A stretch of 64,000 nt of DNA from Luteitalea sp. TBR-22 (GTDB lineage Bacteria; Acidobacteriota; Vicinamibacteria; Vicinamibacterales; Vicinamibacteraceae), in NCBI RefSeq assembly GCF_016865485.1, contig NZ_AP024452.1, positions 890,501 through 954,500 of the forward strand, in the 5' to 3' direction. Made by a program: the position numbers and the translations under genes. Shown here piece after piece: positions 47,028 through 51,324 of this stretch (positions within the stretch are counted from its first letter, which is position 1; each line of letters opens with the position of its first letter). A model generated the notes under the pieces. The model did not search any database and was not told the DNA's origin. It saw only the letters and a program-made list of their open reading frames with translations.

Positions 47028-49817
47028 TCACTGCGCGGCCGTGACCGTCGATGCCTCCTTGGCCTTCTTCGCGGGGACGTCGTTCCAGAACAGGACCGCC
47101 GCATTGAAGAGCATCCCGAACTCGCCGTGGTTCTGCCAGCGGTAGCAGGGATTGGTGGCAAAAGCGACGACCCGTCCCTGCCCCATCGGCGTGTCCACGA
47201 GGGCCGGACGGCGACGGATCTCCGCCGACCCGCGCATGAGCCCGCTCAGCACGCCTTCGTCGCCACCGGTGAATCGCATCAGGACCTGCTCGGCCACGTC
47301 CTCGGTCGGTACCTGCAACAGCGGTCCATTGGCGTACCGCACGGGCAGACGGGTCTTCGCGTAGCCGAAGAAGATCGGGTGCTCCGGTCGCAGCACCTCC
47401 ACCTCGACGATCGGGCCGGGGGCATAGAAGGCGGCGGTGGGCCGCGTGGCCGTGACGGTGCGTTGGAGCCCGAACTCGGCCGGCATGTACGACGACGCGC
47501 CGAGGGTGACGAGGACGCCGCCGTCCTCGACGAACTTCTGCAGTTGGACGACACCCTCGAGGCCCATCCCGCCCGTGATGTCGTCGGACTCACCGTACTG
47601 GCCCAGCGTCGGGAACTGCGGATCCTTCCGGTAGGCCAGGGGACCGCCCTTGCGCTCCACGTCGTACACGAGTGACTTGCCCGTCGTCGCCTGGTTGGGC
47701 ACAAGGATCACGTCGTACGCCTGGCGGAGCGAGCCCTGGCGGACGCGCTCCTTGTAGATCAGGTCGTAAGGGATCCCGAACGTGTCGAAGGCGTGCCGCA
47801 CCCAGCCGACCTCCTGCGTCCGGCCCCAGGTCGAGAACATCGCCAGCCGTGGCAGGTCGACGGCCACGGTCGCGACGTCCGGCATCGTGGCCAGGCCGGT
47901 TGCGGCGAGTCCGAGCGACGTGACGGCGTCGGTCAATGCGGCGCCGGCCGAGGCAGGCACGATGAACGACCCCGCCGGGTACCTCACGTCGCCGACGCTG
48001 AAGCCGGCCGACGTGGCGCGCACGTCCACGGTGCGGCCGAGCGCCAGGCGCAGGCGCACCATGTCGTTCGACCCGTGGTGCGGCACCACCCATGCTGCCG
48101 GCGCCGCCGGGCCCGACACCGTGCCCTTGCGGGCCAGATCGGTCACGGGTGAGGCCGGTGCCTCGAGGACGGCCTTGTCGGCAATCGGCTTGACGTCCAC
48201 CTGCAACATCAACCCCATCGTCCAGCCGGTGTCGTCGTAGGTGCGCAGCGAGGGGTCGGGAAAGGTCTGCTTCTCGAGCAGCGTCTTGACGAGCCGTCCA
48301 TAGGGCTGGTCGCGACGGATCACGTACGAACCCGCCGGGTAGACCGTGTCGGCCACCTTCACGTCAGCCGTCGCCCGCGAGATCTCGATGCCCTGACGCA
48401 TCAGCAGGAACAGCAGGGTGTCGACGCGCGTCTGGTCGGGCTGGCCTGCCGGCACGATGTAGGCGTACGGCGCCTCCGTCCTGCCGGCCTCGAGGCTGTT
48501 GCGGCTCTTCCTGTAGAAGTTCTCGACCAGCACCTCGGGGAAGGCCGATGCGTACTGCAGCGCCGACAGCACGGCGGTCTGCATGTAGTTGGTGTTGTTG
48601 CGCATCGACCACGTGACCTCCTTGTACGGTGGCAACGGCCGGTACCACTCCCGACTGGTCTGCCCGGCGCCGCCGTCCGGTGGCGCCACCCGCCGCTTCA
48701 TCGTCGTCGCGCCGCCGTTGCCGAACGTCTCGTACATGCGGACCAGGCCGTTGTGGTTCGACGACATGAAGGCGAGATAGCCGGGCGACCACATGTCGAC
48801 GAACCCGTGCGTCCACACGCCGGGCATGCCGTACCTGGTGAGCTGCATCATCTCGAAGTTGGCAAACATCGGCAGCTCGCCGTACACGATCGGGTCGAGG
48901 TTCGGGTTCTGCGGCGCCTGGCCCGAGAAGGTGTAGAGGAAGGGCACCGACTCGTGCAGGTCGTGCATCACCGGCGGGTGCGTCTTCAGGTACCACTCGA
49001 GGTGGGCGCGCAACGTGACCTGCGAGTAATTGATGTCGCGGTTGTTGTCGTGGAAGATGTACTTCCCCCAGTAGGGAGGCCCGGTGATGCGGTCCTTCTC
49101 CTCGGTGATGTCCACCATGTACTTGCGGTACCAGTCGACGTAGCGATCGCGCCCGTCGGGATCGCTGGCCGGCGTGAAGCTGACGATGATGCGGTCGCGG
49201 ATCTGCCGGATCAGCGGGGTGTCCTCCGCGACCAGCCGGTAGGCGAGTTCCATCAGCATCTCCGGCGGCCCCGTCTCCGCGCTGTGCAGGCCGGCCATCA
49301 GGTGATAGATGGGCGGCGTGCTCGCGACCAGCCGGCGCGCCTCGTCCTCCGACAGGCCGCGAGGATCGGCGAGCCGGCCCAGGCTCGCGATGTGCGTGTC
49401 GAGCTGCTTCATGGTCGACTCGCTCGCGACGTAGACGACGTTGACCTCGCGGCCTTCATCGGTCCTGCCGATGGTCGTCACGCGGATGCGCGGCGACGCC
49501 TTCTCGAGCGCGCGGTAGTACGCGAGCGCGTCGGCGGTCTTGGTGAGCCGCTTCGGCGTGCCGACGTGATAGCCGAGCACGTCCTTCGGCGTGGGGATGC
49601 CCTTCACCAGCGGCAGGTGGTCGACCAGGGGGCTCAGGAACTCCGGCCCGGTCGTCCACTCGCGGACGCGCGCCGCGAAGTCGGGATCGGTGGCTGCCGA
49701 GGCCGACGAGGTGCGCGTGCGCGTCGCGTCACGCGCGGCCGGTTGCGCATGCGGCACCGCGCCGAGGGGCAGTGCCAGGAGCAGGACGAGGACCCATCGA
49801 GGAAGGCGCGCGGACAT
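47028..49817 (-). CDS. Secreted M14-family zinc carboxypeptidase, ~900 aa type (copy 3)
   Basis: 929 residues with a signal peptide (WVLVLLLALPLGAVPHAQ). M14 domain: VTTIGRTDEGREVNVVYVAS, zinc ligands H178 and E181 in AGLHSAETGP, SFTPASDPDGRDRYVDWY, NNRDINYSQ, MHDLHESVPF (third ligand). The C-terminal half has the shared Rossmann-like part (LPRLAMFSTWGRTQEVGWVRHAF, YDVILVPNQATTG) and ends with GEFGMLFNAAVLFWNDV. It probably digests peptides outside the cytoplasm. Unlike copies 1 and 2 it stands alone, next to the non-coding region at 49.8-50.5 kb, which lies just upstream of its start. Confidence 0.88.
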   Translation of the reverse strand: MSARLPRWVLVLLLALPLGAVPHAQPAARDATRTRTSSASAATDPDFAARVREWTTGPEFLSPLVDHLPLVKGIPTPKDVLGYHVGTPKRLTKTADALAYYRALEKASPRIRVTTIGRTDEGREVNVVYVASESTMKQLDTHIASLGRLADPRGLSEDEARRLVASTPPIYHLMAGLHSAETGPPEMLMELAYRLVAEDTPLIRQIRDRIIVSFTPASDPDGRDRYVDWYRKYMVDITEEKDRITGPPYWGKYIFHDNNRDINYSQVTLRAHLEWYLKTHPPVMHDLHESVPFLYTFSGQAPQNPNLDPIVYGELPMFANFEMMQLTRYGMPGVWTHGFVDMWSPGYLAFMSSNHNGLVRMYETFGNGGATTMKRRVAPPDGGAGQTSREWYRPLPPYKEVTWSMRNNTNYMQTAVLSALQYASAFPEVLVENFYRKSRNSLEAGRTEAPYAYIVPAGQPDQTRVDTLLFLLMRQGIEISRATADVKVADTVYPAGSYVIRRDQPYGRLVKTLLEKQTFPDPSLRTYDDTGWTMGLMLQVDVKPIADKAVLEAPASPVTDLARKGTVSGPAAPAAWVVPHHGSNDMVRLRLALGRTVDVRATSAGFSVGDVRYPAGSFIVPASAGAALTDAVTSLGLAATGLATMPDVATVAVDLPRLAMFSTWGRTQEVGWVRHAFDTFGIPYDLIYKERVRQGSLRQAYDVILVPNQATTGKSLVYDVERKGGPLAYRKDPQFPTLGQYGESDDITGGMGLEGVVQLQKFVEDGGVLVTLGASSYMPAEFGLQRTVTATRPTAAFYAPGPIVEVEVLRPEHPIFFGYAKTRLPVRYANGPLLQVPTEDVAEQVLMRFTGGDEGVLSGLMRGSAEIRRRPALVDTPMGQGRVVAFATNPCYRWQNHGEFGMLFNAAVLFWNDVPAKKAKEASTVTAAQ

Positions 49818-49970
49818 GCCGCGGATTATGGCCGCAGCCCGGCACCGAGGGAAATGCCGCCCACCAGATTCGTGATCGACACGTCCCTTTTCGTGATCGC
49901 CGAGTCGCGCCGCGCCCGTGCCGCCCCGACCACCGCGCGAGATCCCGACGTATCACGCCATTTGCTGGTG

Positions 49971-49986
49971 TGGCATGCCGGTTGCT
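49971..49986 (+). promoter_or_regulatory. Sigma-54 (-24/-12) promoter of RNA copy 1
   Basis: TGGCATGCCGGTTGCT matches the RpoN consensus TGGCACGN4TTGCW at every defined position except one (T for C at position 6). Expected transcription start near 49997. CGTGATCG words lie about 79 and 100 bp upstream, a usual distance for enhancer-binding proteins. Confidence 0.7.
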
Positions 49987-49996
49987 CTTGTTCCAG

Positions 49997-50086
49997 GCGT
50001 CGGCGGCTTGTTTGTGGCACGAGGCCACATTGCTGGGGAGCCAGGTCGTCGGCAGCAGGGGTCACGCGGCATCGCGCGGCCTCTGC
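49997..50086 (+). ncRNA. Candidate structured small RNA, copy 1
   Basis: Predicted transcript of about 90 nt or more. It is about 80% identical to copy 2 with no indels. Structure visible by eye: hairpin 1 TGTGGC/GCCACA (50013-50018 and 50024-50029) with loop ACGAG; a conserved middle TGCTGGGGAGCCA; a conserved TCGTCGGCAGCA; and hairpin 2 pairing GCAGGGGTC (50055-50063) with GGCCTCTGC (50078-50086). Compared with copy 2, two stem bases differ and both changes give G:U pairs, so pairing is kept. A second strong hairpin follows at 50097-50127. The targets are unknown. Confidence 0.6.
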
Positions 50087-50096
50087 GTACTTCTCT

Positions 50097-50127
50097 GGCC
50101 CGTCGTGCCGTCAAGGTGCGACGGGCC
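50097..50127 (+). terminator. Hairpin terminator after RNA copy 1
   Basis: Perfect 9-bp stem GGCCCGTCG (50097-50105) with CGACGGGCC (50119-50127), 13-nt loop, followed by TTCTCGCGTTT. This may be the real end of transcript 1. Confidence 0.55.
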
Positions 50128-50305
50128 TTCTCGCGTTTGCAGGAACGTCCTCGGCCCTGGGCCGTACCGTCGGCACGACGTGATCGCCGGGCCACGACCA
50201 AAGTTGTCAGTCGAGCCCCACATTCGTGATCGCCGCGGTCGCCTCGCGGTCGGCGATTGGCGATTTCCTTCGACAAAACAAGCCTGATCGCATCGGAGCG
50301 CCTTC

Positions 50306-50321
50306 TGGCATGCCCGTTGCT
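50306..50321 (+). promoter_or_regulatory. Sigma-54 (-24/-12) promoter of RNA copy 2
   Basis: TGGCATGCCCGTTGCT, again matching the RpoN consensus with only one deviation, the same one as in copy 1. Expected transcription start near 50331. CGTGATCGCC words lie about 80 and 127 bp upstream (50226 and 50179). Confidence 0.7.
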
Positions 50322-50330
50322 CCAGTGAAG

Positions 50331-50421
50331 GCTGTCGGCGGTATGTTTGTGGCACGATGCCACAGTGCTGGGGAGCCATATCGTCGGCAGCAGAGGCCAC
50401 GCAATTCTGCGCGGCCTCTGC
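50331..50421 (+). ncRNA. Candidate structured small RNA, copy 2
   Basis: Predicted transcript of about 90 nt, equivalent to copy 1. Hairpin 1 TGTGGC/GCCACA with loop ACGAT (starting 50348). The conserved TGCTGGGGAGCCA and TCGTCGGCAGCA are present. Hairpin 2 has a perfect 9-bp stem GCAGAGGCC (50390-50398) with GGCCTCTGC (50413-50421), followed by a C/T-rich run (CCGTTCTTCCC) that could complete a factor-independent terminator. No open frame with a start and ribosome site is present in it. Function unknown. Confidence 0.6.
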
Positions 50422-50472
50422 CCGTTCTTCCCTTCGCCCTTCCCTTCTTCCCCCTTCTCCCGTCTCCCCCTC

Positions 50473-50515
50473 CCGATCCGCGATCCTCGATCCCCGATCG
50501 TCGATCCCGGATCCG
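50473..50515. repeat. Heptamer repeat (cgatccn)
   Basis: Six units of the CGATCCG/CGATCCC/CGATCGT family, inverted relative to the array at 39473-39514. It lies about 35 bp before the pxpA start and after RNA copy 2. Confidence 0.85.
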
Positions 50516-50550
50516 CGCCCGCCCCTTCTCCTTCCGGTATCGTGTCCTCC

Positions 50551-51324
50551 GTGCGTCTCGACATGAACGCGGACGTGGGCGAGCACGACGGACCGCCGCT
50601 CGAGGACGCCCTGGCCCTGCTGCGCCTGGTCACCTCCGCCAACATCGCCTGCGGAGCGCACGCCGGCGACGACGAGAGCATGAGACTCACGGCGCGTGCC
50701 GCGGCGGCTGGCGGCGTGCAGGTCGGCGCGCATCCGTCGTTCCCCGATCGCGAGGGCTTCGGGCGACGGGTGCTGCCGCTGTCGCCGGCGCAGGTCCGTG
50801 ACGAGGTCGCGCGCCAGGTGCAGCGCCTGGCCGGACTCGCTGCCCTGGAAGGCGTGCCGGTGCGCCACGTGAAGCCCCACGGCGCCCTGTACAACCTCGC
50901 GGGGCACGACCGGCGCGTCGCCGAGGCGATCGTGGCGGGCATCGTCGCCGTCGATGCGGCCCTGGCCTTGTACGCGCCCCACGGCACTGCGCTTGCCGAC
51001 GCCGGCCACGCCGCGGGCCTTCGCGTCGTCGCGGAGGGCTTCCTCGACCGGGCTTACGAAGATGACGGGTCGCTCACGTCCAGGGCGGTGGAGGGCGCAG
51101 TGCTGCACGACGCCGACGCGGCCAGCGTGCGGGCGCTCGCGTGGGTGCGCACGGGCCTGGTCACGGCGCGGTCGGGGCAGCTGATCCGGTTGCCGCTCGA
51201 GACACTCTGCGTGCACGGCGACACCCCCGGCGCCGCGGCGATGGCGGCCCGCGTCCGTGCGGCGCTGAGGGCGGCCGGCGTCAGAATCGTGCCGGCTCTC
51301 GCGCCCTCGGAGGATCGCGCGTGA
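50551..51324 (+). CDS. pxpA: 5-oxoprolinase subunit A (LamB/YcsF family)
   Basis: 257 residues, the family length. N-terminal VRLDMNADVGEHDG matches the family start (usually DLNADLGE), then TSANIACGAHAGDDESM, VGAHPSFPDREGFGRR, PVRHVKPHGALYNLAGHD, AEGFLDRAYEDDGSLTSR and LCVHGDTPGA. PxpA works with PxpB/PxpC to open 5-oxoproline to glutamate with ATP; B and C are not in this window. Start GTG 50551 (an in-frame GTG at 50542 is possible); no strong ribosome site is seen. The stop overlaps the TSUP gene by 4 bp. Confidence 0.9.
   Translation: MRLDMNADVGEHDGPPLEDALALLRLVTSANIACGAHAGDDESMRLTARAAAAGGVQVGAHPSFPDREGFGRRVLPLSPAQVRDEVARQVQRLAGLAALEGVPVRHVKPHGALYNLAGHDRRVAEAIVAGIVAVDAALALYAPHGTALADAGHAAGLRVVAEGFLDRAYEDDGSLTSRAVEGAVLHDADAASVRALAWVRTGLVTARSGQLIRLPLETLCVHGDTPGAAAMAARVRAALRAAGVRIVPALAPSEDRA

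Follow-up and report, generated by a model that had tools for sequence, protein, structure and literature searches.

The window, by which we mean the whole 64,000-nucleotide stretch of DNA analysed, carries one RNA gene twice (49971-50086 and 50306-50421), and these tandem loci almost certainly represent a real RNA gene family, defined by a promoter, an enhancer-like site, a structure and a terminator and present mostly in one copy per genome. The first-pass annotation had read the pair as a duplicated sigma-54-dependent regulatory RNA, a proposal that gains support, as promoter, stems and terminator are kept in relatives and a coding explanation fails. Comparison of related sequences establishes the boundaries of the predicted gene, its structure, its conservation and its autonomy from the neighbouring genes. 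The RNA would very probably be controlled by sigma-54 together with an enhancer-binding protein and is likely to act in trans; the fuller reading, held tentatively and with a little less than even confidence, is that of a free-standing regulatory RNA gene in tandem duplicate which may bind a protein through its hairpin P3.

The two blocks lie 335 bp apart without indels and share 94 of 121 positions (49971-50091 against 50306-50426), the runner-up ungapped match of the block within the window sharing 57 of 121, and at the offset of 335 bp the identities per 30 nt drop from 28 inside the block to 9-13 outside it, in agreement with the spacing and the loss of conservation described initially. 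Both copies are on the forward strand. Each opens with a sigma-54 promoter box, TGGCATGCCGGTTGCT in copy 1 (49971-49986, predicted start about 49997) and TGGCATGCCCGTTGCT in copy 2 (50306-50321, predicted start about 50332); nowhere else in the 6.47 Mb genome is TGGCATGCCSGTTGCT matched exactly. These paired boxes had been pointed out before, as had TGTGGC/GCCACA, TGCTGGGGAGCCA, TCGTCGGCAGCA and a terminal hairpin, all of which are present, and the changes between the two terminal hairpins (G/A and T/C) do retain pairing, with G:U against A:U and U:G against C:G. In contrast to the fold first proposed, hairpin P2 and a short P3 (GCU-GGGG-AGC) sit inside a stem P1 of 12 bp, and the second hairpin then follows; TCGTCGGC, which had been taken for a separate motif, belongs to the long stem P1 as its 3' strand, the 5' strand starting about 2 nt past the predicted start, and TGCTGGGGAGCC is now seen to contain a 3-bp hairpin with a G4 loop. 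In copy 1, the junction core at 49999-50053, identified by fold, covariation and model match, consists of P1 (49999-50010 with 50042-50053), P2 (about 50013-50029) and P3 (GCTGGGGAGC, 50032-50041), and the terminator-like hairpin is folded from 50055-50086; in copy 2, the core at 50334-50388, identified by fold and model match, consists of P1 (50334-50345 with 50377-50388), P2 (about 50347-50365) and P3 (50367-50376), with the terminator-like hairpin folded from 50390-50421. Overlooked at first were the repeats TTCGTGATCG before both copies, read from the sequence as enhancer-like sites, which in copy 1 form two direct repeats 100-130 bp upstream of P1 (49869-49899; units at 49869-49878 and 49890-49899) and in copy 2 a single element (50223-50232) that was partly matched in a search for repeat plus box. 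Of the two, copy 1 has diverged more, as its identity to the genus's single copies is 76-83%, against 82-88% for copy 2.

The architecture of the RNA is a three-way junction, with P1 at the predicted 5' end, a variable hairpin P2 and a near-invariant P3, after which comes the terminator-like hairpin. Folded singly, the two window copies are more stable than shuffled sequence (z -3.85 and -5.82, with 0 of 200 shuffles each), and so is the copy of another genome, G001 (z -5.50), whereas four distant members (L008, L010, L011 and L012) fold no better than shuffles (z -0.78, -0.91, -0.98 and -1.75) and the best single-sequence fold of L008 is not the junction, so that the structure rests on covariation. 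In the alignment fitted to the covariance model, 94.4% of the cells pair and two-sided changes occur in 18 of 22 pairs. As such an alignment leans towards the structure, 35 divergent members were re-aligned by sequence alone, and RNAalifold arrived at this junction again de novo: 94.5% of 697 cells were paired, 14 of 20 pairs showed two-sided changes, and covariation was 0.537 against 0.247 in the shuffled control and at most 0.113 in slid controls. The two-sided changes fall in P1 and P2 and none in P3, whose three pairs hardly ever change. The G-run of P3 is present in 102 of 102 loci (length 4 in 49, 5 in 19 and 6 in 34), an invariance owed in part to selection, P3 being included in the model by which the members were detected. 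The P2 loops are unconserved, with GG in 62 of 102 loci only, and a conserved second site in the P2 loop was accordingly rejected. Loci from two genomes of another genus in the same family (L108 and L146) display a variant P3, GCTGGGGAGA, together with a sigma-54 box and a terminator-like hairpin.

BLAST gave matches in 12 of 60 genomes, namely this one, four others of the genus, each with a single copy, and seven weak ones elsewhere in the order Vicinamibacterales, of which the four distant members named above show the same arrangement on reading. A first covariance model, built from nine sequences of the junction only, with promoter and terminator left out, reached, with E values up to 0.1, 97 of the 162 genomes in the order, some of them by false matches; with E values up to 0.01, a second model, built from 91 matches, picked out 99 of the 193 genomes in the class, every one of which belongs to the 162 of the order. 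The match in G007 (L151) comes with neither promoter nor terminator and looks degenerate, either a remnant or false. Across 396 genomes of the phylum, the second model gave 38 matches, 31 in the order and seven weak ones elsewhere, which on inspection were rejected as they lack a fitting promoter or terminator. The strict filters of these model searches lose some weak matches. A pattern of promoter plus P3, searched across a genome collection described as holding 84,980 species, occurred on 23 contigs, of which 18 contain the junction and bear the label Acidobacteria, Vicinamibacteria, Vicinamibacterales or Vicinamibacteraceae; the five labelled as other phyla were discarded as chance, with a model score of at most 17.6 bits or no junction match. 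For the counts, four of 96 model matches, coding-like sequence without the box, were dropped (L084, L103, L109 and L110), and 10 of 13 further loci of the order were kept, with L150 and L151 dropped for want of a box and L159, which has one, for lying at a contig end. Weak matches L111-L121 were left out of the counts; on inspection, L111 proved to be a clear member that has both the box and a terminator-like hairpin, L120 has a clear core, and the other nine look false. The resulting 102 loci, with 94 distinct cores, are related to each other, and the counts are therefore not independent events.

The sigma-54 box, the enhancer-like motif and the terminator were excluded from the covariance model, which describes the junction only. 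The strict box GGYAY-N5-TTGC lies within 60 nt before P1 in 76 of 102 loci, with its first G at -31 to -24, against 0/99 and 0/102 in shifted windows and 0/102 on the other strand (77/104 on adding L111 and L120, and 78/120 if all dropped and uncounted rows are restored), and the relaxed box GGYA-N6-TTG is found in 92 of 102 loci against 0/99, 3/102 and 0/102 in the controls. In some genera of family f2, TTGC is replaced by TTGT or TTGG. An rpoN gene occurs in 146 of the 162 genomes of the order, this one included. Further upstream, at -180 to -80, a [CT]GT[AG]A[TG] site, defined by motif only, is present at 75 of 99 loci against 9 of 98 and 13 of 100 control windows, and a motif search returned CAnA..TGTAAk..ACrAAnT, starting 97-116 nt before P1 in 71 of 100 sequences with a score of 1190, against 764 in control windows, a control that comprised 98 sequences and fewer restarts. 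The repeat of this genus looks different, with TTCGTGATCG instead of TGTAAK; combined with a sigma-54 box, a repeat of this type occurs at seven places in three of the five genus genomes, five of which are the RNA gene and the remaining two coding-like by eye. A terminator-like hairpin follows downstream in 92 of 102 loci, against 2/98, 3/100 and 12/102 in the controls, although the U-tract behind it is weak in this genus, window copies included. The expectation that promoter, stem and terminator be conserved in relatives is thus borne out, from all four other genomes of the genus to 99 of 162 genomes of the order. The loci had also been described as noncoding, and a protein-coding explanation indeed fails, as core lengths modulo 3 are spread over all three classes and any one frame is open in at most 53 of 102 loci. 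The locus L120 (genome G069) combines a clear junction and a terminator-like hairpin with a GGGGTCAGACCCC-type repeat at the promoter position and has no sigma-54 box, and reads as if the promoter had been lost.

Most carriers have a single copy, and the window pair is the only adjacent pair among 95 sources of model matches. Two to three copies per genome, on separate contigs and not in tandem, were seen in G015, G059 and G044 (family f10) and in G130 (f2). Neighbours were counted with a simple gene caller that misses some genes visible by tblastn, pxpA included; those called are a DGQHR/DndB-like gene (PF14072, TIGR03187) at 64 loci, pxpA at 46 and an M14 peptidase gene at 35. In the window, the conserved neighbours outside the RNA gene are an M14 zinc carboxypeptidase gene on the reverse strand (47028-49817, PF00246) and pxpA, encoding the LamB/YcsF-type 5-oxoprolinase subunit A, on the forward strand (50563-51324, PF03746, E 1.5e-80). 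The RNA is at the 3' side of the DGQHR gene in 64 of 64 loci, 39 convergent and 25 on the same strand. Dependence of the RNA on this neighbour was rejected, since the gene was not found in either of the two genomes of this genus that were searched (this genome, G000, and G001). The DGQHR gene itself is highly conserved: 27 genomes in which no RNA was matched carry it at 76-93% identity to the probe, and its 3' side revealed no convincing hidden RNA in the 19 of these RNA-negative genomes in which the gene end was located.

The position of the RNA upstream of pxpA and on the same strand, shared by the genus with members of families f5, f8, f9 and f13, might suggest a cis-acting leader or attenuator of pxpA. 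Among the 46 copies with pxpA called nearby, however, only 19 have it immediately downstream in the same orientation, 13 have it upstream and divergent, and nine upstream and codirectional, and the junction is followed by a terminator-like hairpin, which makes a leader highly improbable. The neighbourhood can be read as one ancestral block in which the RNA gene flipped, and flipping relative to its neighbours argues for an autonomous unit, not a leader. That the duplication arose by chance or is of a non-RNA nature, for example a protein-binding DNA repeat, is scarcely credible; the loci are known from sequence alone, which leaves some room for it, but compensatory changes across the order and the fixed positions of promoter and terminator speak against it.

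The combined pattern of enhancer-like site and sigma-54 box occurs at 52 places in 45 of the 162 genomes of the order, against three for the reversed pattern, and by reading of the list 28 of these places are RNA genes and 24 are others. Four of the 24 (in G012, G092, G121 and G126) precede a gene for a PAS histidine kinase followed by one for an NtrC-type response regulator. Kinase and regulator domains were scanned in G126 only, and the other three pairs are its relatives by tblastn, with 52-63% identity for the kinase and, for the regulator, 72-85% over partial sequence and 79% over the whole in G012. The signature ahead of such a pair makes an autoregulated NtrC-type two-component system a concrete guess for the activator of the RNA. 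Against this candidate, two of the four operon genomes (G012 and G092) have no RNA. The combined pattern is absent from this genus in the search of the 162 genomes, and in the 0.72 Mb sampled from this 6.47 Mb genome (36 stretches of 20 kb) the pair was not found, only paralogues of 43-48% identity. The operon loci (L248:899-3516, L249, L236 and L234/L277) come from four genomes of three families and have a gene for an ABC-F-like ATPase, named by eye, upstream.

The signature also stands ahead of pilM (PF11104) in one genome and, in another, ahead of a GspH-like pilin gene assigned below the Pfam cut-off (L225 and L235), and a link of the regulon of the RNA to type IV pili is possible on this basis. 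At L245, L246, L253, L254, L255 and L223, the signature stands ahead of a gene for an uncharacterized protein with DEWGIYDP near its start, in five g36 genomes and, as recognized by eye, one f5 genome, and without a Pfam match for the one tested. In six g16 genomes (L239-L244), it stands ahead of a conserved ORF of about 72 aa (beginning MSVVRILGFSTL in L239, where it has no Pfam match), with a DNA methyltransferase-like gene, by eye, following it in L239 and L240.

As to how the RNA might work, we infer the use of sigma-54 in vivo, an activator, an action in trans and a protein partner. An activated NtrC-type enhancer-binding protein would occupy the site about 100 bp upstream, sigma-54 RNA polymerase would start about 2 nt before P1, and termination behind the second hairpin would leave a transcript of about 90 nt with nearly all of its bases paired. 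This RNA would work in trans with P3 as the contact, as GCU-G4..6-AGC, directly continuous with P1, is the only near-invariant exposed element and thus the likely business end. P3 may bind a protein instead of pairing with one mRNA, acting as a CrcZ-like decoy or cofactor, and the tandem copy might raise the dose or split regulation. The lack of two-sided changes in P3 while P1 and P2 covary, together with its G-run in all loci, suggests recognition of the hairpin itself.

Which partner P3 would contact has to be weighed against the known RNA-binding regulators. Hfq is undetected in 43 of 99 carriers, CsrA in 64 of 99 and both in 33 of 99, absences which are inflated by incomplete genomes. Hfq presence is unrelated to the RNA (p 0.52), with Hfq in 56 of 99 carriers, and dependence on Hfq as a general trait was rejected on the 43 carriers without it. 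The gene csrA is commoner in carriers (35/99 against 8/63 non-carriers, Fisher p 0.002, uncorrected for kinship) and present in this genome, and the GGGGA of P3 and the GGA of some P2 loops would fit a titration of CsrA by GGA-containing loops in the style of CsrB/RsmZ. As a general mechanism, such a CsrA sponge is nonetheless rejected, since 64 of 99 carriers have no detectable csrA; in family f15 the RNA is found in 11 of 12 genomes and csrA in one, the P2 loops are not conserved and the A of P3 is base-paired, so that CsrA titration appears very unlikely.

A different use of the same RNA gene would be that of an antisense sRNA, whose P3 loop of four to six G, its stem either closed or opened, pairs with C-rich mRNA, mostly without Hfq. 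Conserved short seeds are typical of pairing sRNAs, and the G-run, the only near-invariant exposed bases, would offer just such a short conserved seed, an obvious one for C-rich targets; the Hfq of the majority of carriers would be at its disposal. On the other side stand the carriers without detectable Hfq, the variation of the loop length from four to six, the P3 stem without covariation, and the complement GGCTCCCCAGC, which is not enriched. In the five genus genomes, the one exact 11-nt complement of P3 that was tested occurs at 24 places (six being RNA genes) against 46 for the reversed control; in this genome it occurs at eight places, two of them the antisense strand of the RNA, against 10 reversed, and in the draft genome G003 the RNA is its sole place. 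Pairing of the G-loop with C-rich mRNA is therefore possible rather than probable, yet comes close behind protein binding. The lean towards protein binding is drawn from the P3 stem that does not covary, the drift in loop length, the unenriched complements and the frequent lack of Hfq. If taken to its most specific form, protein binding would mean an order-wide RNA of Acidobacteriota, switched on by an NtrC-type two-component system (which also governs the operon encoding it and a number of type IV pilus genes), whose near-invariant G-loop hairpin sequesters a global RNA-binding protein that is neither Hfq nor CsrA, a speculative picture to which we give only a small chance. The one third of carriers without detectable Hfq and CsrA would point to a post-transcriptional route bypassing the two best-known RNA-binding regulators, and with defined parts, a candidate activator and a single near-invariant hairpin, the function is directly testable.

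Among known RNAs, no Rfam 15 family reaches the gathering score, whether in the window or in the 20 other loci scanned; a relaxed scan of 49850-50560, with E values up to 10, gave five matches, all far below their own cut-offs. The check suggested initially had included Acido-1 (RF01686) and Acido-Lenti-1 (RF01687), which match neither in the window and the 20 loci nor in the relaxed scan. Targeted searches of one literature collection found no sRNA work on Vicinamibacterales. The sRNAs GlmY/GlmZ, Qrr1-5 and NrsZ are sigma-54-dependent, and several of them exist in more than one copy. Their architecture is different from the RNA described here, which is also set apart by having no Rfam 15 match, and the likeness to GlmY/GlmZ remains an analogy only. 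CrcZ carries A-rich Hfq-binding motifs. It counters Hfq-Crc, whereas Hfq is so often undetected in carriers of the present RNA, a GC-rich three-way junction without an Rfam match. The likeness lies in the two RNA genes, as CrcZ/CrcY of Pseudomonas/Azotobacter have RpoN-dependent promoters switched on by the response regulator of CbrA/CbrB (PMC6292655), where predicted sigma-54 boxes stand here. Acido-1 and Acido-Lenti-1, presented as candidate structured RNAs of Acidobacteria (PMC2864571), share the phylum with the RNA, and their models do not match it. Similar in promoter layout is Pxr of Myxococcus, which has a predicted sigma-54 promoter with an upstream enhancer-binding region and three predicted stem loops, the stem loops being conserved across myxobacteria (PMC5684412); by these three stem loops it is set apart from one three-way junction plus terminator. 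As judged from its predicted promoter and fold, the RNA is a new family within a known kind, the sigma-54-dependent small RNA.
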